From positions 434,001 through 498,000 of the forward strand of contig NZ_CP113929.1 in the NCBI RefSeq assembly GCF_029392075.1: a DNA stretch of 64,000 bases, given 5' to 3'. Within the stretch, counting starts at the first letter, position 1; each line of letters begins with the position of its first letter. Below the pieces are notes generated by a model that did not search any database, was not told the origin of the DNA, and worked only from the letters and a program-made list of their open reading frames with translations. The translations under genes and the position numbers were made by a program. Shown in pieces: positions 29,067 to 37,291 of this stretch. This DNA comes from Bifidobacterium sp. ESL0704. Its GTDB lineage: Bacteria > Actinomycetota > Actinomycetes > Actinomycetales > Bifidobacteriaceae.

Positions 29067-29456
29067 AAACGCGGAAAGCAATTTTGAAAACCTCCGTACG
29101 TTTCGGCGTCGGAGGTTTTTTCATGCCTTGGCACAGCGCCGTTCGGCGTTGGCGGCGTTCGCGCCGCGTCGTAGTGCCGGCCGGCGATGTGGGCTTGGGG
29201 TATTTGTCGCTTTTTACATGCTTGCTTGGCGGATATGTGCAAAAGGTGACAAATAGACAGGCTAATTGTCACCTTTTACACGGCTGACCTCATATCGCGC
29301 GCAAGAAGTGACTATTGGCGGGAGCGAGATCAAAAAATCGGGGTTGGATTTAGATAAGTGTTTTCAACCTTGCTTTAATTACGAACGTAAGTTATATTAG
29401 TTTTGAACGTAATTTTAGATATGAATTACGCTACTTCACATCGTTCGAAAGAGGCA
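29067..29456. other. ~390-bp intergenic region between rpmB and the glycyl-radical activase
   Basis: No gene is seen. It holds the rpmB terminator, a hairpin array (29206-29277; AAAAGGTGACAA at 29241-29252 pairs with TTGTCACCTTTT at 29266-29277) and an AT-rich stretch. In that stretch AATTACG (29377-29383) and CGTAATT (29408-29414) form an inverted repeat, likely the operator of the activase gene. Confidence 0.65.
29087..29121 (+). terminator. rpmB terminator
   Basis: AAAACCTCCG (29087-29096) pairs with CGGAGGTTTT (29110-29119), followed by further T. The surrounding ~67 bp recur at 37305-37371. Confidence 0.9.
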
Positions 29457-30365
29457 ATGTTGGAATCAGCGATTGTTTTCAATGTTCAGAAATTCAGTCT
29501 TAACGACGGACCGGGCATACGAACCGTGGTCTTTCTCAAAGGCTGCCCATTGCGGTGCGGCTGGTGCTCCAATCCGGAGAGTCAGAAGAAGACTCCTGAG
29601 ATTGAGTGGGATGAGCGTTCTTGCGATGGCTGTGACGCTTCCGATGCTCTCGCCCGTAAAGTCGGTTTCATTAAAACCGGTGCGCGGCGAGGGCCGGACG
29701 TGACTCGCCTGCAAATAGGCGACGCGCAGGTCGATGAAGCATTGAAGGATTGCCCCGGTCTCTCTGTTGTCGGAGTGAGGCGCACGAGTGATGACGTGCT
29801 TGAGGAATGTCTGCAGGATGAGCCGTTTTACGAGGAAGGTGGGGGAGGTGTCACGCTTTCCGGCGGTGAGCCGTTGGTTTGGGGACATTTCTGTGTCGAG
29901 CTGCTCGATAAGCTCAACGCTCGTGGCGTCGACACCAGTATCGAGACGACCGGTCATGTGCCCGAAAAGGTTTTCAGGGCAGCAATCGGGCATCTCGATC
30001 ATATTTTCATGGATATGAAGCAATATGACACGGACCTTCACAAGCGGGGCACCGGTGTCGGCAACGAGCTGATTCTTAGGAACATGGCCTATGCGGCGTC
30101 AACGGGCAAAGACCTTTTGATTCGTACTCCCGTCATTCCCGGTTTCAATGACTCGCTTGAGGATGCAAGGGGCATGGCTCGTAAGCTCAAGGCAATAGGC
30201 GTCGATAAAGTGCAGCTGCTGCCGTTCCATAATTTCGGCGAATCAAAGTACGAGTTGCTGGGTCGCGAAGACTACGCGTTCAAGGGTGTACCCAACACGC
30301 ATCCCGAAGATATCGAGGATTTCAGGCAGGTGTATCTTGATGAGGGCGTGGAGGCTTTCTTGTAG
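29457..30365 (+). CDS. Glycyl-radical enzyme activating protein (radical SAM)
   Basis: About 302 residues. KGCPLRCGWCSN gives the CX3CX2C cluster motif that binds a 4Fe-4S centre and SAM; FSLNDGPGIRTVVF and the GGVTLSGGEPL segment are diagnostic. It installs the glycyl radical on the GRE encoded at 31649. The ferredoxin-like insert seen in many GRE activases is degenerate here: only scattered CDGC and DCPG remain. I choose the ATG at 29457 because the family begins there and AGAGG precedes it; an ATG at 29421 is possible. Confidence 0.9.
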   Translation: MLESAIVFNVQKFSLNDGPGIRTVVFLKGCPLRCGWCSNPESQKKTPEIEWDERSCDGCDASDALARKVGFIKTGARRGPDVTRLQIGDAQVDEALKDCPGLSVVGVRRTSDDVLEECLQDEPFYEEGGGGVTLSGGEPLVWGHFCVELLDKLNARGVDTSIETTGHVPEKVFRAAIGHLDHIFMDMKQYDTDLHKRGTGVGNELILRNMAYAASTGKDLLIRTPVIPGFNDSLEDARGMARKLKAIGVDKVQLLPFHNFGESKYELLGREDYAFKGVPNTHPEDIEDFRQVYLDEGVEAFL

Positions 30366-30556
30366 GTTTCTTCTTTCGAATACTTTCTTCCAGCAGTTTC
30401 GTGATTACTGTTTTGATAGGGTCAACGAAAATAGTGGCTTTGGCTGAGTAAGCGAAAAGCTTTTGTTCGAAAGTCGATCTGTTTGTTATTCCTTGGTATT
30501 GGGTGTTAGGCTGGCAGGGTAGACGAAGCGTGAACCTGATTACGGAAGGCGGGTCA

Positions 30557-31303
30557 ATGGAAACGAGGACGAACCGGATTCTCGAGCTGCTCACCGAGCA
30601 CAAACGTATCGAGGTCGCCGCGCTTGCCGAAGAACTCGGGGTTTCCGAAGTCACCATGCGCAAGGATCTGAGTGGACTCGAAAAGCGCGGCATCATCGAT
30701 CGTGAGCACGGATTCGCCGTGCTGAAAAGCGCTGACAACATGGAGAGTCGGCTTGCCTACCATTACGAAGAAAAGCTGAAAATCGCCAAGCGTGCAGCGC
30801 AGTGTGTCCATGATGGCGATACGGTGATGATCGAGAACGGCAGCACCTGTGCTTTGCTGGCCGCTGAACTGGTTTCGACCAAAAACGATCTCACCATCAT
30901 CACCAACAGCGCGTTTGTCGCCGGATATGTGCGTGGCAAATCCCAAAGCCAAATCATCCTTTTGGGTGGAATATACCAGCAGACGGCGCAGGTCATGGTC
31001 GGACCGATGGTTGAGCGTTGTCTGAAGGGCATGTACGTCGATATTCTGTTCGCCGGCACCGACGGTTACAGCGAGGAGACAGGATTTGCAAACCGTGATT
31101 CCCTGCGGGCCGAGACCGTGTGCGATATGGCGCAACATGCAGGCCGTGTGGTTGTGGTCACCGAAAGCAGCAAGTTCTCGAGACGGGGTACCGTGCCTCT
31201 TGAATTCGGAGACAAAGATGTCGCCACATTCACCGATGCCGGACTTTCGGATGCAGCCAGGGACATGCTGGACCGGCACGGTGTCGACATCGTCACGGTC
31301 TGA
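30557..31303 (+). CDS. DeoR-family transcriptional regulator
   Basis: 248 residues. The N-terminal DeoR helix-turn-helix (RILELLTEHKRIEVAALAEE, then SEVTMRKDL) is followed by the DeoRC sugar-phosphate-sensing domain (IENGSTCALLAAEL, TIITNSAFVA, and a GTDGYS motif). I use the ATG at 30557 after GGAAGGCGGG. It sits between the activase and the GRE and is likely the local repressor, released by a phosphosugar. The repeated TTACGAA element in front of the module's transcription units is its candidate site. Confidence 0.93.
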   Translation: METRTNRILELLTEHKRIEVAALAEELGVSEVTMRKDLSGLEKRGIIDREHGFAVLKSADNMESRLAYHYEEKLKIAKRAAQCVHDGDTVMIENGSTCALLAAELVSTKNDLTIITNSAFVAGYVRGKSQSQIILLGGIYQQTAQVMVGPMVERCLKGMYVDILFAGTDGYSEETGFANRDSLRAETVCDMAQHAGRVVVVTESSKFSRRGTVPLEFGDKDVATFTDAGLSDAARDMLDRHGVDIVTV

Positions 31304-31648
31304 TATTTCGCTGTAGGGGAAATATTTTATTCTGATTGAGCTTTTCTGCCCATATGTGTTCTTTGTCTGCCTTATCCCGGGTTTGCGCTGCGGATGGTTA
31401 TCTGCAATTTCTGATGGCGGAGTAATAGATAATCTTTTATTTTTAAAGCTTTAATAAGTGTTGCCTCCATGCTTTCTCTTTGATTTCGGCATTGAGGAAT
31501 ATGCAAAATATTTCTCGAAGAGATCTAATCGAAAGTTTTTTATTTACGAACAAAAGATAAATCGCTTACGAAATTGACAAAAAAACTTTCTTTCGTTATT
31601 CTGAAGCTACGTAAGTGATGTAGCTTACATTTATGAAAGGAAAGTACG
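31304..31648. other. 345-bp AT-rich leader and control region of the GRE gene
   Basis: No gene is seen. The last 100 bp hold a promoter, two TTACGAA boxes and an inverted repeat. The rest is AT-rich with poly-T runs that may terminate the regulator transcript. Confidence 0.6.
31554..31628 (+). promoter_or_regulatory. Promoter and operator region of the glycyl radical enzyme
   Basis: TTGACA (31574-31579), 17 bp and TATTCT (31597-31602) form a near-consensus promoter. TTACGAA boxes at 31554 and 31566 abut the -35. AGCTAC (31605-31610) and GTAGCT (31620-31625) form an inverted repeat at the expected start site. This fits tight repression by the neighbouring DeoR protein. Confidence 0.65.
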
Positions 31649-34075
31649 ATGAGTGATTCACATTTTGGAAAGCTCACTGACAGGATGAACTCTTTCCGCG
31701 ATCAGCTGTTGGATGCAGTGCCGCAGATCGATGTCGATCGGGCGATGATCACGACCAAGGTCTATCAGGAGCAGCAGGATCAGCCTTTGGCCATCAAACG
31801 TGCCATTATGCTCAAGGAGATTCTTGAACAGATGCCGATTTTCATTGAGCCCGAGACGGTTATCGCCGGCAACCAGGCTTCGAAGAACAGGTCGGCGCCG
31901 ATTTTCCCGGAATATGCGATGGACTGGGTGATCGATGAACTCGACCAGTTTGAAAAGCGCGATGGCGATGTGTTCACCATCACGGAGGAAAACAAGGAAA
32001 AGCTGCGTTCCATCTATCCGTTCTGGAAGCACAACACGCTTCAGGACCGCGGATTGGCGGCCTTCCCTCCCCATTCCAAGCTGTTCTACGACCTCGGCAT
32101 CATCAAGTCCGAAGGCAACATCACCTCGGGCGACGCCCATTGCGCCGTCAATTATGAGGGATTGCTGAAGCTGGGACTGAAGGATTATGCGCGTCGCGCC
32201 CAGGAAAAGCTTGACGCTCTCGATCTGACGGATTACCGCAACATTCATAAGAGCTACTTCTATCGGGCCATTCTCATCGTGGTCGATGCCGTCAAGGAAT
32301 TCGCCGGTCGATATGCCTCGTTGGCTCGCCAGCAAGCCACGGAATGCTCGCAGAGGGGCGACGAACGTCGTGCTTCGGAACTGTGTGGGATGGCCGAGGC
32401 ACTGGATCATGTGCCGTATGAGCCGGCACATACCTTGCGCGAAGCGGTGCAATCGGTCTGGCTGATCCACCTCACGCTGCAGCTCGAGTCCAACGGCCAT
32501 TCACTTTCGTATGGTCGTATGGATCAATATCTGTGGCCGTACTATGAAAACGATCTGAAGACCGGTCGGATCACGGCGGACGAGGCCGATGAGCTGATGT
32601 GCAATCTGTGGCTCAAGACCTTCACCATCAACAAGGTCCGCCCGTGGAGCCACACCCAGTTCTCCGCAGGTTCACCGCTCTACCAGAATGTCACCGTGGG
32701 TGGCCAGAAGCTGGTGGACGGCGAAGCGCGCGATGCCACCAACCCCATGAGCTGGCTGATCCTGAAGTCTGTGGCCCAGTGCCATCTCACCCAGCCGAAC
32801 CTCACCGTCCGTTATCATGAGAACCTTCCGGACGATTTCATGAACGAGTGCATCGAAGTCGTCCGTTGCGGTTTCGGCATGCCCGCCTTCAACGACGACG
32901 AGGTCATCATTCCCAGCTTCATCGAAAAAGGTGTGACCCGCGAGGACGCCTACAATTATTCCGCTATCGGCTGCGTGGAAACGGCAGTGCCGGGCAAATG
33001 GGGCTATCGTTGCACCGGCATGAGCTTCCTCAATTTCCCGAAGGCGTTGCTGATTGCCATGAACAACGGCGTCGACCCTCAAAGCGGCAAGAAGCTCGTT
33101 GAAGGCACTGGGCATTTCAAGGACTTCACAAGTTTCGATCAGGTCATGCAGTGCTGGGATAAGGTCATTCGTGAGATGTGCCGGCAGTGTGTCATCATCG
33201 ACGCGACCTGCGATATGGTACTTGAACACGACACGGCGGATATCCTCTGCTCCTGCCTGACCGACGATTGCATCGAACGCGGCCTGAACATGAAGGAAGG
33301 CGGAGCCGTCTACGACTTCATCTCCGATCTGCAGGTGGGCATCGCCAATCTCGCCGATTCTCTCGCGGCCATGAAGAAAGTGGTCTTCGAAGAGAAGAAG
33401 GTGACGCCTGAAGAGCTCTGGGATGCCATGCAGGACAATTGGCAGGGCGAAAAGAACGAACATATCCGTGAGCTGATGAAGGCCGCGCCGAAGTACGGCA
33501 ACGACGATGATTATGTTGATTCGCTGATTCGTCAGGCCTATGACATCTATATCGACGAAATGAAGAAGTACCACAACACCAGGTATGGTCGCGGCCCGAT
33601 CGGTGGCATCTACTATGCCGGTACCAGCTCGATTTCGGCGAATGTTCCCCAGGGCGCCGGGACACTGGCCACTCCCGACGGCCGTGCCGCGGGTGAGCCC
33701 CTCGCCGAAGGTTGCAGCCCTTCGCATTCCGCCGATCAGCACGGCCCGACCGCCGTGTTCAAGTCGGTCTCCAAGCTACCCACCGATGACATCACCGGAG
33801 GCGTGCTGCTCAACCAGAAGATGACTCCGCAGGTGCTTTCGAAGATGGAGAACAGGCAGAAACTCGCTTTGCTGACCCGTGCGTTCTTCGACAAGCTTCA
33901 CGGCTACCACGTGCAATACAACGTCGTCTCCCGCGAAACGTTGCTTGATGCGCAGGTCCATCCTGAAAAGCATCGTGATCTGATCGTTCGCGTCGCCGGT
34001 TACAGCGCGTTCTTCGTGGTGCTGTCCAAGGCGACCCAGGACGACATCATCGAGCGGACGGAACAGACGCTGTAA
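31649..34075 (+). CDS. Glycyl radical enzyme, dehydratase/lyase (PflD/YbiW) type
   Basis: 808 residues. The radical site is RVAGYSAFF with the glycyl at G784. The active-site motif is GCVE (C442, E444), typical of dehydratase and lyase GREs; pyruvate formate-lyase has two adjacent cysteines instead. AAAGGA precedes the start. It is followed after 51 bp by an FSA-type aldolase. From context I infer a lyase that opens a phosphorylated anhydro or deoxy sugar to a ketose phosphate for the aldolase, as I recall for the E. coli PflD/YbiW enzymes acting on 1,5-anhydroglucitol 6-phosphate. Glycerol or diol dehydratase is an alternative, but no aldehyde dehydrogenase, alcohol dehydrogenase or microcompartment genes are nearby. 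The GRE class is certain; the substrate is not. Confidence 0.93.
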   Translation: MSDSHFGKLTDRMNSFRDQLLDAVPQIDVDRAMITTKVYQEQQDQPLAIKRAIMLKEILEQMPIFIEPETVIAGNQASKNRSAPIFPEYAMDWVIDELDQFEKRDGDVFTITEENKEKLRSIYPFWKHNTLQDRGLAAFPPHSKLFYDLGIIKSEGNITSGDAHCAVNYEGLLKLGLKDYARRAQEKLDALDLTDYRNIHKSYFYRAILIVVDAVKEFAGRYASLARQQATECSQRGDERRASELCGMAEALDHVPYEPAHTLREAVQSVWLIHLTLQLESNGHSLSYGRMDQYLWPYYENDLKTGRITADEADELMCNLWLKTFTINKVRPWSHTQFSAGSPLYQNVTVGGQKLVDGEARDATNPMSWLILKSVAQCHLTQPNLTVRYHENLPDDFMNECIEVVRCGFGMPAFNDDEVIIPSFIEKGVTREDAYNYSAIGCVETAVPGKWGYRCTGMSFLNFPKALLIAMNNGVDPQSGKKLVEGTGHFKDFTSFDQVMQCWDKVIREMCRQCVIIDATCDMVLEHDTADILCSCLTDDCIERGLNMKEGGAVYDFISDLQVGIANLADSLAAMKKVVFEEKKVTPEELWDAMQDNWQGEKNEHIRELMKAAPKYGNDDDYVDSLIRQAYDIYIDEMKKYHNTRYGRGPIGGIYYAGTSSISANVPQGAGTLATPDGRAAGEPLAEGCSPSHSADQHGPTAVFKSVSKLPTDDITGGVLLNQKMTPQVLSKMENRQKLALLTRAFFDKLHGYHVQYNVVSRETLLDAQVHPEKHRDLIVRVAGYSAFFVVLSKATQDDIIERTEQTL

Positions 34076-34126
34076 TCCGCGATCCGCGATTGGTCGCTGA
34101 ACTGTTGGCAATGAAAGGAAATAACC

Positions 34127-34804
34127 ATGAAACTCATCATTGATGATGCGGATACCGAGGCCATCAAACGCTTGGTCGAGTATTATCCGATCGATGGTGT
34201 GACCACCAACCCCTCGATTCTGGCGAAGGCCGGACGCCCGCCTTTCGAGGTGCTGCACGAGATTCGCTCGATTATCGGGCCGGATCGCGAGCTGCACGCG
34301 CAGGTGGTCGCCAGAGACGCCAAAGGCATGGTCGCCGATGCCCATCGGATCGTCAAGGAGCTGGGAGACAACACGTTCCCCAAGGTTCCGAGCGTTCCGG
34401 AAGGGTTCAAGGCCATCAAGCAGTTGTCGGGCGAAGGCATCAACGTGACTGCGACCGCGATCTATACGCCTTTGCAGGCGTTCATAGCGGCGAAGGCCGG
34501 AGCGGTATATGCCGCCCCGTACATCAACCGCATCGACAATATGGGTTACGACGGAGTCGGCGTCGCGTGCAAGATCCACGACATCTTCAAAGCCAACAAC
34601 CTGCATTGCGAAGTCCTCGCGGCGAGCTTCAAGAACTCGCAGCAGGTGCTTGACCTGGCAGTTCATGGTGTGGGCGCTGCGACGATAGCGTCTTCGGTCA
34701 TCGACTCGCTGACCAAGAACGCTGCAATCGATGCGGCAGTAGATGATTTCGTGGCCGATTTCGAAGGTCTTGTCGGCTCCGGAAAGACTATGGCCACTCT
34801 GTAG
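34127..34804 (+). CDS. Fructose-6-phosphate aldolase/transaldolase-like (FSA/TalC)
   Basis: 225 residues, close to the ~220 of E. coli FSA and much shorter than true transaldolase. DGVTTNPSILAKAGRPPF and the Schiff-base lysine K86 in FPKVPSVPEG match the family, as do NVTATAIYTPLQAFIAA and APYINRIDNMGYDG. It should cleave a ketose 6-phosphate into glyceraldehyde 3-phosphate plus dihydroxyacetone or hydroxyacetone. It lies directly behind the GRE with AAAGGA as ribosome site, so the two are co-transcribed. Confidence 0.93.
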   Translation: MKLIIDDADTEAIKRLVEYYPIDGVTTNPSILAKAGRPPFEVLHEIRSIIGPDRELHAQVVARDAKGMVADAHRIVKELGDNTFPKVPSVPEGFKAIKQLSGEGINVTATAIYTPLQAFIAAKAGAVYAAPYINRIDNMGYDGVGVACKIHDIFKANNLHCEVLAASFKNSQQVLDLAVHGVGAATIASSVIDSLTKNAAIDAAVDDFVADFEGLVGSGKTMATL

Positions 34805-34863
34805 GCGATAGCCGGCTCGATGGTATGAGAATGTCTCTCTCACGCCGTCGAAGTTATTAAGAT

Positions 34864-34914
34864 CGTTGGTTTCGATGGTGATTTTAGCCAATGAGACCAC
34901 CGTCGAAACCAACG
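34864..34914. terminator. Hairpin after the aldolase gene
   Basis: A 17-bp stem (34864-34880 with 34898-34914, one G-T wobble; core CGTTGGTTTCGA) separates the GRE-aldolase unit from the kinase-permease unit. A long T-run is lacking. Confidence 0.6.
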
Positions 34915-34993
34915 ACAACAAAACGGGACGAACATTTCAAGGCGCAATGTGCGATCGGCGTCGATTCGGCATTGTGGCTTCAAAATCAATTTT

Positions 34994-35000
34994 TTACGAA
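34994..35000 (+). promoter_or_regulatory. TTACGAA box in front of the kinase gene
   Basis: TTTTTTACGAAATTC repeats the TTACGAAATT of the GRE promoter (31566). It suggests that kinase and permease are controlled with the GRE. Confidence 0.4.
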
Positions 35001-35063
35001 ATTCCGGGATATGCTATGCACCGAAACTTCGAATAACAGGTATGGATAACGCAAGGATGCATC

Positions 35064-36080
35064 ATGAAAATTCTGGCCATTGATATCGGCGGAACCAATA
35101 TCAAATATGCGTATATGTTGGAGAACAGCTCGATTACCTCCCGTGGGTCGATTCCCACCCCGCAGGAAGGTCGTGATGAATTGATTGCGGCGTTGACTCA
35201 GCTTTTCAAGCAGGAGCCCGGGGTACAGGGCATTGCCATCTCGATGCCGGGCATCATTGATTCGGACGAGGGATATTGCGCGATGGGCGGAGCGTTGCGC
35301 TACAACGACGATTTTTATCTTCGTCATGAGCTGTTCAGCCATTGCCCGGTGCGTATCGTGATGGACAACGACGCGAAGTGCGCGGCCACCGCGGAGGCGA
35401 CCGTCGGTGCGCTGAAGGATGTGAGCGATGGCTTTGTCCTGCTGTTCGGAACCATGATCGGCGGCGGCATCATCAAGAACCATGTGCTTCATCGCGGCCC
35501 GCACTTCTCGGCCGGCGAAGTGAGCTACATCATCACTTCGCACGATGAAGGGCCGACCCGTGAAGGGGTTTGGGGCAACCAATGTGGAACGCCTGCCCTG
35601 TGCGCGAATTATGCGAACATCAAGGGCGTGGATCCGGATTCCATCAATGGTGTGAAATTCTTTGAAGCGGTGAACGCGGGGGAGCCCGACGCGTTGGATT
35701 GCCTGGATCATTATGCCCACGACATCGCGGTGCAGATATTCAATATTCAGAACATCGTCGATCCGGAACGGTTTGCCATCGGTGGCGGCATCTCGGCTCA
35801 GCCTGCGTTCATCGAAGCCATACGCGCCAATCTGCAGAAGCTGTACGCGACTTGCCCGTACTTTGTCTCCCAGGCAGATGTGGTCAGCTGCAAATTCCGG
35901 AATGACGCCAACTTGGTGGGTGCTTTGCAATGTTACCTGCGTGGCGTCGACGAACGTGAATACTTCGTCAACAAGGAGGATGTGGACGGATCGATCGAAA
36001 AGTCGAAACAACAGTCCGACGGTGAAGAGGAAAAGGTACCTGAAGGCAAGGTGCTGGTCAACAACTTTCAAAGTGAGTGA
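35064..36080 (+). CDS. ROK-family sugar kinase
   Basis: 338 residues. AIDIGGTNIKYA is the phosphate-binding motif, MDNDAKCAA carries the catalytic Asp, and GTMIGGGII and FAIGGGIS follow. The ROK zinc motif CXCGXXGC is missing; the region reads GPHFSAGE...GNQCGTPALC. The C-terminus carries ~40 extra, mostly acidic residues. It has no N-terminal DNA-binding domain, so it is an enzyme and not a regulator. It probably phosphorylates the sugar that enters through the EIIC gene right behind it, giving the substrate of the GRE. Its stop codon overlaps the alternative GTG start of the permease. Confidence 0.9.
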   Translation: MKILAIDIGGTNIKYAYMLENSSITSRGSIPTPQEGRDELIAALTQLFKQEPGVQGIAISMPGIIDSDEGYCAMGGALRYNDDFYLRHELFSHCPVRIVMDNDAKCAATAEATVGALKDVSDGFVLLFGTMIGGGIIKNHVLHRGPHFSAGEVSYIITSHDEGPTREGVWGNQCGTPALCANYANIKGVDPDSINGVKFFEAVNAGEPDALDCLDHYAHDIAVQIFNIQNIVDPERFAIGGGISAQPAFIEAIRANLQKLYATCPYFVSQADVVSCKFRNDANLVGALQCYLRGVDEREYFVNKEDVDGSIEKSKQQSDGEEEKVPEGKVLVNNFQSE

Positions 36081-36085
36081 ATGAC

Positions 36086-37291
36086 ATGGCCAAGAAAAAG
36101 AGTTTGCTGAACGTCGTCATCGATGGTATTTCCGGGATTTTCCTGCCGATTGTGAACCTGCTTTCCGCGGCGGGCATCATGAAGGGTGTGCTGATCATCC
36201 TCACCAGTTGCAAGGTGCTGGATGCGTCCGGCAATACGTATCTAGTGCTTGACGCGATGGCATCGTGTGTGTTCACCTTCCTGCCCGTCATGCTTGCGTA
36301 TACGTCCGCCAAGCAATTCAAGACCAATCCGTATATCGCGGTTGTCATCGCCTGCCTGATGCTGTATCCGGCGCTGGTGAAAGTGCAGGAAAAGGGCACC
36401 ACTCTGTCCTTCTTTGGCATACCGATGTTGGGTGTCAAATATGCTTCAAGCGTGCTGCCCATCATTCTGGCGATTGGTTTGCTGCGCTTCGTGCAGCAGT
36501 GGCTTGACAAGGTCCTTCCAGAAGTGATTCGCGGATTCCTCACGCCGCTGATCTGCGTTCTGTTCGTCGGCTCGGTGACGTTGCTGCTCTTTGGGCCGTT
36601 CGGCAAAGTGGTCGGTGACGGACTCGCCGCCGGATACGAATGGGTATATGCGCTTTCGCCGATCGTCGCAGGCCTGTTGCTGGGCGCTGCCGTGCAACCG
36701 ATGGTCATTTTCGGTTTCCACTGGAGCCTGATCCTTATCGGCATGAACAATCTGGCGGTTTCCGGGCGCGATACGGTACTCGCTCTGATGGGACCTCCCG
36801 TCTTTGCGCAGGCAGGGGCCGCGCTGGCCGTTATGCTCAAAAGCCATGACGCGCCGTTCAAGACGACCTGTATTTCCGCCAGTATCTCGGCTTTGTTCGG
36901 CATCACGGAACCGGCCATGTTCGGCGTGAACCTCCCTCGTAAGATGCCTCTTGCCGCTGTGTGCATCGGTGGCGGTGTGGGCGGTGCCATTGCCGGATAT
37001 TCCGGAGTCCAAGCCCATGCTTTCGCGCTTCCCAGCATCGCCACGTTGCCCGTTTTCTTCGGCCACGGTTTTGTGACCTACGTTATCTCCTGCGTGGTTG
37101 CCATGGTGGTCGCCTTCCTGCTGACCCTCGTCTTCAAGTTCCCTGTGGACAACTTGGACGATGAAAATGACGAGGTTCGCTCCGAGGAAGACCGTGAGAT
37201 GCTCGAAGAAAACTCACAGGCCGAAGGTGAAACCTCTGCGAATTCCGAAGTGGGTATCGCCGCTGACGTAATCGCAACGGCCAAGCCGTAA
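36086..37291 (+). CDS. Stand-alone PTS EIIC permease (glucose/beta-glucoside superfamily)
   Basis: 401 residues, about ten membrane helices. FGFHWSLILIG and FGITEPAMFGVNLP are the conserved EIIC sugar-binding signatures of the Glc family. No EIIB (phospho-cysteine) or EIIA domain is fused or encoded nearby; instead the C-terminus is a ~45-residue acidic tail. Because a ROK kinase precedes it, the protein may work as a transporter of unphosphorylated sugar and not as a true PTS component. A GTG start at 36077 is an alternative. A terminator follows at 37332. Confidence 0.9.
   Translation: MAKKKSLLNVVIDGISGIFLPIVNLLSAAGIMKGVLIILTSCKVLDASGNTYLVLDAMASCVFTFLPVMLAYTSAKQFKTNPYIAVVIACLMLYPALVKVQEKGTTLSFFGIPMLGVKYASSVLPIILAIGLLRFVQQWLDKVLPEVIRGFLTPLICVLFVGSVTLLLFGPFGKVVGDGLAAGYEWVYALSPIVAGLLLGAAVQPMVIFGFHWSLILIGMNNLAVSGRDTVLALMGPPVFAQAGAALAVMLKSHDAPFKTTCISASISALFGITEPAMFGVNLPRKMPLAAVCIGGGVGGAIAGYSGVQAHAFALPSIATLPVFFGHGFVTYVISCVVAMVVAFLLTLVFKFPVDNLDDENDEVRSEEDREMLEENSQAEGETSANSEVGIAADVIATAKP

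Follow-up and report, generated by a model that had tools for sequence, protein, structure and literature searches.

Six genes of Bifidobacterium sp. ESL0704 probably encode a form of anhydroglycolysis that is independent of the phosphotransferase system (PTS), with 1,5-anhydroglucitol as the probable substrate, as judged from sequence and gene content. The genes lie in a stretch of 64,000 nucleotides (contig NZ_CP113929.1, positions 434,001 to 498,000), here called the window, whose numbering is used throughout. All six are on the + strand, in the order activase, DeoR-family regulator, glycyl radical enzyme (GRE), fructose-6-phosphate aldolase (FSA), ROK sugar kinase and Enzyme IIC (EIIC) permease (Table 1). 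An earlier note on this DNA had placed these genes, and their coordinates, strand and families were borne out by the open reading frames (ORFs) and by Pfam and NCBIfam models. The genome is a single contig of 2.416 Mb, estimated to be 96% complete.

According to passages of PMC12441222, YbiW acts on 1,5-anhydroglucitol 6-phosphate (AG6P) and PflD on its mannitol epimer (AM6P), both yielding 1-deoxyfructose 6-phosphate after phosphorylation by the PTS. The earlier note had given AG6P as the substrate of PflD/YbiW-type GREs, which holds for YbiW and, by the same passages, not for PflD, whose substrate is AM6P. Ma et al. described the core of the pathway in 2024, as cited in PMC12441222; passages of PMC12441222 also report 1,5-anhydroglucitol to be present in most foods. 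Titles and abstract beginnings among the matches listed by a literature search held nothing on this pathway in bifidobacteria; the paper of Ma et al. 2024 lay outside that check. The FSA, hydroxyacetone and GldA steps downstream are reportedly also part of that 2024 work. Apparently new here is that the known core enzymes are combined with an EIIC-only permease and a predicted kinase, in a genome where no core PTS parts were detected.

Relationship and active site of the glycyl radical enzyme

The GRE of the window is a YbiW-type enzyme by its clade, and a proposed AG6P lyase. In a search of PDB sequences it matched 6xs4 with 908 bits and the YbiW entries 8id7 and 8yjn with 896 bits each, followed by weaker matches to glycerol dehydratase (583 bits), PflD (444 bits) and pyruvate formate-lyase (PFL; 161 bits). 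Identity amounts to 51% with YbiW, 39% with the glycerol dehydratase-like enzyme L116 and 35% with PflD. The protein passed TIGR01774, a general subfamily model, and fell short of the cut-offs of all equivalog models matched, those for HypD, CutC, PflD and PFL included; with the PflD model NF007437 it reached 531 bits at a cut-off of 1109.

In a tree of 105 rows, 82 window-type GREs (SH-aLRT support 98) stand beside six enterobacterial YbiW sequences in a joint clade with support 100; long branches were flagged in this tree for CutC, PFL, PflD and two unknown rows. A tree of 28 rows, which excludes HypD, CutC, PFL and unknown rows, returned the joint clade with support 100/100, inside which YbiW and window-type rows were not resolved. 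As to the rows used, the best match of L116 is glycerol dehydratase 1r8w (1185 bits); L124 matches 9rco with 1396 bits, 1r8w with 1099 and diol dehydratase with 982. PflD is the closest relative of L118, L120 and L078 and the best equivalog model, under its cut-off, for L059. NCBIfam cut-offs were exceeded by L122, L126, L127 and L128 (PFL), L121 and L005 (HypD) and L123 (CutC). The phylogeny, which the earlier note had proposed as a check, puts the GRE in a clade with YbiW, apart from glycerol/diol dehydratases, PflD and PFLs; the placement named there beforehand as speaking against the idea, within a glycerol/diol dehydratase or PFL clade, did not occur in the trees.

The catalytic residues C442 and E444, which the earlier note had pointed out, are present, as is the radical glycine G784. 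A comparison of active-site residues had been suggested as well, and the window enzyme proved identical to YbiW in all nine pocket columns compared, which we take to be substrate contacts of glycerol dehydratase; all nine are invariant in the 82 rows of the clade. Four of them (284, 342, 457 and 660) distinguish YbiW from PflD. Column 284 holds H in the window enzyme, YbiW and the glycerol/propanediol dehydratase (GD/PD)-like rows and S in PflD. Columns 342, 457 and 660 read S, G and S in the window enzyme and YbiW, Y, D and Y in the GD/PD-like rows shown, and F, D and Y in PflD; HypD shares the G at 457.

Enzymes before and after the proposed radical step

The aldolase appears to be a divergent FSA. 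It keeps 11 of the 13 FsaA active-site positions compared, among them K85, Q59 and Y131, and lacks the Glu and Phe of transaldolase, residues by which, as we assume, the two enzyme types can be told apart. The nearest solved structure to the ROK kinase is the beta-glucoside kinase BglK (4htl, 131 bits). Assignment as BglK itself was rejected, the score being 164.3 bits against a cut-off of 550 for NF042998. A permease and a kinase of beta-glucoside type would suit 1,5-anhydroglucitol, a glucose ring without free C1 hydroxyl. Between the FSA and ROK genes lies an 18-nt inverted repeat, 94% complementary (34863-34915).

The activase keeps the radical-SAM cysteines of the CxxxCxxC motif in the alignment (C30, C34 and C37) and passes the cut-off of its NCBIfam model; an in-frame TTG is found at 29403, upstream of the ORF start. 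Its auxiliary ferredoxin-like insert, where auxiliary iron-sulphur cysteines usually sit, has few cysteines in the window group. In the activases of three primate bifidobacteria (L022:7797, L023:3306 and L024:7846) the insert is absent, despite GREs that are 84-85% identical. Away from the cluster, the genome encodes a protein of the glycerol dehydrogenase subfamily (GldA-type; 482 bits, cut-off 336) and a lactaldehyde reductase.

The EIIC permease and the apparent lack of a phosphotransferase system

The EIIC protein, the sole PF02378 match in the genome, has this domain alone, without EIIB or EIIA domain. Searches for EIIA-Glc, EIIB-Glc, HPr and the Enzyme I N-domain gave no match in the window genome and, as a control, found these families in 5, 5, 7 and 7 of 14 genomes, respectively; PF02302, PF00359 and other PTS families were outside these searches. 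Since four core PTS families are without match, ordinary PTS uptake is very unlikely in this genome and was discarded as an explanation, and the PTS-independent route suggested in the earlier note gains in strength. An EIIC orthologue of at least 94% identity occurs in six of 112 Bifidobacterium genomes (G000, G002, G004, G029, G126 and G128). HPr, found in 85 of the 112, is missing from four of these six carriers.

A search of the PDB with the EIIC sequence gave no match. Its AlphaFold2 model (mean pLDDT 82) resembles EIIC(Glc) structures, with TM-scores by query of 0.55-0.61 and an rmsd of about 6. Among 120 listed of 1508 EIIC homologues none has an EIIB or EIIA domain; 119 consist of PF02378 alone and one, P0058, is fused to a HAD domain. 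A large family of EIIC-only proteins exists (listed as P0001-P0120).

Occurrence in bifidobacteria and gene neighbourhoods

All six genomes with the EIIC orthologue (the window, L021, which is G002, and L158-L161) have the genes in the order activase-DeoR-GRE-FSA-ROK-EIIC. DeoR is 94% identical to the window protein in L021 and 94-96% identical in L158-L161. This conserved order, together with the recurrence of activase, DeoR and FSA relatives near related GREs, shows that the grouping is not due to chance. G004 carries an additional FSA gene upstream of the activase, with 92% identity to that of the window (L160:4044-4925).

With the GRE as query, a copy of at least 97% identity was found in four of 37 Bifidobacterium genomes, its own included, the closest named record in the genome scan being that of Bifidobacterium sp. 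ESL0784 (97%). The remaining genomes gave matches of 27-36% identity only, two of which were classified, G035 as a HypD-type GRE and L007 as a PFL. GREs above the NCBIfam hydroxyproline dehydratase cut-off occur at L005:1501-4110 (genome G035) and L121:1417-3843 (B. simiarum). B. saimiriisciurei, B. simiarum and B. primatium have a GRE of 84-85% identity with FSA and ROK genes, the activase being on the opposite strand. Among these primate species EIIC is found in the fetched locus of B. simiarum only (72%, 384 amino acids, PF02378 alone), and in all three a PF06800 sugar permease gene follows shortly downstream of the cluster. A YbiW-type GRE of a Bifidobacteriaceae metagenome-assembled genome (L077:804-3296) does not join the bifidobacterial group of the tree.

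Of 166 confirmed loci the best 80 were kept for a comparison of neighbourhoods, a sample biased to near relatives; neighbours were called by BLAST searches with the proteins of the window, no more than 4 kb from the GRE. Flanks of 4 kb or more are present on each side in 49 of these loci, among which an activase is near the GRE in 47, DeoR in 45, FSA in 29, ROK in 26 and EIIC in 2. Six of the 26 ROK neighbours are of the window's kind (at least 45% identity) and 20 of a distant kind; three of the latter were scanned and are PF00480 proteins, with a putative role as 1,5-anhydroglucitol kinase. A GRE-FSA-ROK arrangement is seen repeatedly, in Actinomycetota as well as in Spirochaetota (L028) and Bacillota (L049 and L052), and in L054 a GldA-type gene directly follows the GRE. 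Because ROK neighbours are common among relatives, entry by way of a kinase may not be unique to the window; the unusual part of the cluster is the EIIC-only permease. In two Bacillota genomes a PflD-like and a YbiW-type GRE share one locus (L078:2966-12406 and L059:9992-17309).

Candidate regulatory region

The GRE gene is preceded by a -35 box TTGACA at 31574 and a -10 box TATTCT ending at 31602. The words TTACGAA (31544 and 31566), AATCGAAAG and CTTTCGTTA were noted in the same region. The last ~120 bases ahead of the GRE are conserved in six aligned genomes and the sequence farther upstream is not; TTACGAA is kept in five of the six at 31544 and in all six at 31566, and AATCGAAAG and CTTTCGTTA are conserved in the six genomes too. 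A consensus promoter scan returned three promoter-like sites against 5.5 in shuffles, fewer than expected. DeoR may bind at the candidate operator in this block.

Table 1 The six genes of the cluster, the region preceding the GRE gene and the sugar permease genes of related loci (window positions unless a locus is given)
Feature	Position	Strand	Basis
GRE-activating radical-SAM enzyme	29457..30365	+	PF04055/PF13353; TIGR02494 276.7 bits, cut-off 174.35
DeoR-family regulator	30554..31303	+	PF00455 (DeoRC) and PF08220 (HTH_DeoR)
Promoter and candidate DeoR operator preceding the GRE	31527..31648	+	Block conserved across six aligned genomes
GRE, YbiW-type, 808 amino acids, proposed AG6P lyase	31649..34075	+	PFL-like and Gly_radical; PDB sequence search, trees, pocket columns
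FSA	34127..34804	+	TAL_FSA; Q59, K85, Y131 by FsaA numbering
ROK sugar kinase, proposed 1,5-anhydroglucitol 6-kinase	35064..36080	+	PF00480; nearest structure 4htl, 131 bits
EIIC-only permease, Glc/beta-glucoside-type, proposed facilitator	36077..37291	+	PF02378 alone
PF06800 sugar permease genes of primate species	L022:15111-16121; L023:12251-13129; L024:15241-16119

Proposed pathway and comparison with known systems

The scheme takes as its observed basis the genes, their families, the clade, the residues, the gene order and the four searched PTS families without match, and proposes on it the chemical steps, the substrate, the mode of transport and the regulation. We strongly infer that 1,5-anhydroglucitol would be the substrate taken up and AG6P that of the GRE. 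The EIIC-only protein would admit 1,5-anhydroglucitol without phosphorylating it, and the ROK kinase would convert it with ATP to AG6P. The activase would set a radical on G784, which would pass to C442, and the GRE would then open the ring of AG6P to give 1-deoxyfructose 6-phosphate. Cleavage of this product by FSA would yield glyceraldehyde 3-phosphate, which would enter lower glycolysis and so bypass fructose-6-phosphate phosphoketolase, and hydroxyacetone, which the GldA-type dehydrogenase encoded elsewhere could reduce to 1,2-propanediol, balancing NADH. DeoR would control the GRE promoter.

The ybiW-ybiY-fsaA locus of Escherichia coli resembles the cluster in having a YbiW-clade GRE, equal in the pocket columns compared, with adjoining activase and FSA genes. 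The cluster differs from it in having a DeoR of its own, a ROK kinase and an EIIC-only permease in addition. The E. coli routes begin with phosphorylation by the PTS, as passages of PMC12441222 describe, and in the window a kinase is proposed instead. The pflD-pflC-fsaB-gldA-frw locus of E. coli, that of the AM6P lyase, likewise combines a GRE with activase, FSA and GldA; it differs in that it includes PTS genes, and its GRE belongs to another clade and differs in four pocket columns. BglK is the nearest solved relative of the kinase, which nevertheless falls far short of the BglK cut-off. With EIIC proteins of the Glc superfamily (E. coli 8qsr and Vibrio cholerae 9lgt) the modelled permease shares the EIIC fold over most of its length (TM-scores by query of 0.55-0.56), whereas it has no EIIB or EIIA domain and the core PTS parts, as far as the four families show, were not found in its genome.

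Points against the proposal and other explanations

Several observations weigh against the proposed pathway and are taken together here. Of 177 YbiW-specific columns the window GRE keeps 78 and loses 99, at an identity of 51%. GREs of other kinds share five of the nine pocket columns, which have no discriminating power, and the nine are presumed contacts of glycerol dehydratase rather than those of a YbiW complex; one of them, Y640 of glycerol dehydratase, is uncertain. At the positions of F57 and L107 in FsaA and FsaB, the FSA carries H and T (40 of 43 rows), which is not decisive because the FSA beside the PflD-like GRE L120 has both residues. It also scores under the NCBIfam cut-offs (198 against 246 for TIGR00875, 206 against 306 for NF009296 and 200 against 214 for NF009299), and the ROK protein is below every cut-off among the NCBIfam models matched. 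Neither FSA nor ROK lies inside 4 kb in seven of the 49 full-flank loci. Transporters near GRE relatives are diverse, the PTS included: 15 loci have an RbsA-like ATPase cluster, L040 has a mannose/sorbose-type PTS protein, L084 has PTS_EIIC_2 and L088 a major facilitator superfamily protein. The sequence divergence, the H57/T107 pair and this variety of transporters would all fit a relative of YbiW with a somewhat different substrate. Such an enzyme would open or dehydrate AM6P, some other anhydrohexitol 6-phosphate or a hexose derivative of unknown kind, in any case a related polyol or deoxy sugar in phosphorylated form, with FSA cleavage retained. The identity with YbiW in all nine pocket columns, including the four that separate it from PflD, speaks for AG6P, and we consider a related substrate unlikely, though it deserves to be kept in mind. 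Far less probable is that the GRE is a glycerol/1,2-diol dehydratase or a PFL with incidental neighbours. The general model TIGR01774 does include such enzymes, but GD/PD-like and PFL rows fall outside the YbiW clade in the trees, columns 342, 457 and 660 are unlike those of the GD/PD-like rows, and activase and FSA neighbours recur; assignment of the GRE as diol/glycerol dehydratase, PflD or PFL was rejected on PDB ranking, model scores, trees and pocket columns.

Other points concern uptake. HPr is present in two of the six EIIC carriers (G004 and G029). In the family of G061, the Lachnospiraceae group, an EIIC match at E <= 1e-80 was found in 11 of 299 genomes, and in the five loci fetched (L173-L177, one with a broken frame) none of the flanks holds a relative of ROK, GRE, FSA, DeoR or the activase. 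The PF06800 permease of the primate species is no firm stand-in for EIIC, since an acetolactate decarboxylase gene on the opposite strand separates it from ROK in L022 and an ORF whose protein begins similarly intervenes in L024. The HPr of the two carriers, the restriction of the PTS search to four families, without PF02302 and PF00359, and the estimated completeness of 96% leave some room for an EIIC that still works in a PTS with borrowed partners, the ROK protein phosphorylating something else. The four families are unmatched in the window genome, however, three other carriers have no HPr, and EIIB and EIIA domains are absent from the 120 EIIC homologues listed, which makes such an arrangement very improbable.

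Possible meaning for bifidobacterial sugar metabolism

The PTS-independent reading of the cluster remains the preferred one. In its fuller form, towards which we lean by a small degree, an EIIC freed from the PTS would serve as facilitator and, with a dedicated ROK kinase, feed a radical glycolysis that avoids the bifid shunt, some bifidobacteria fermenting 1,5-anhydroglucitol to 1,2-propanediol. The carrier genomes and the small gene set are named, which makes the proposal directly testable. If true, anhydroglycolysis would be possible without a PTS, one member of a large EIIC family lacking PTS partner domains would be given a function, and bifidobacteria would gain a hexose-like route around fructose-6-phosphate phosphoketolase.

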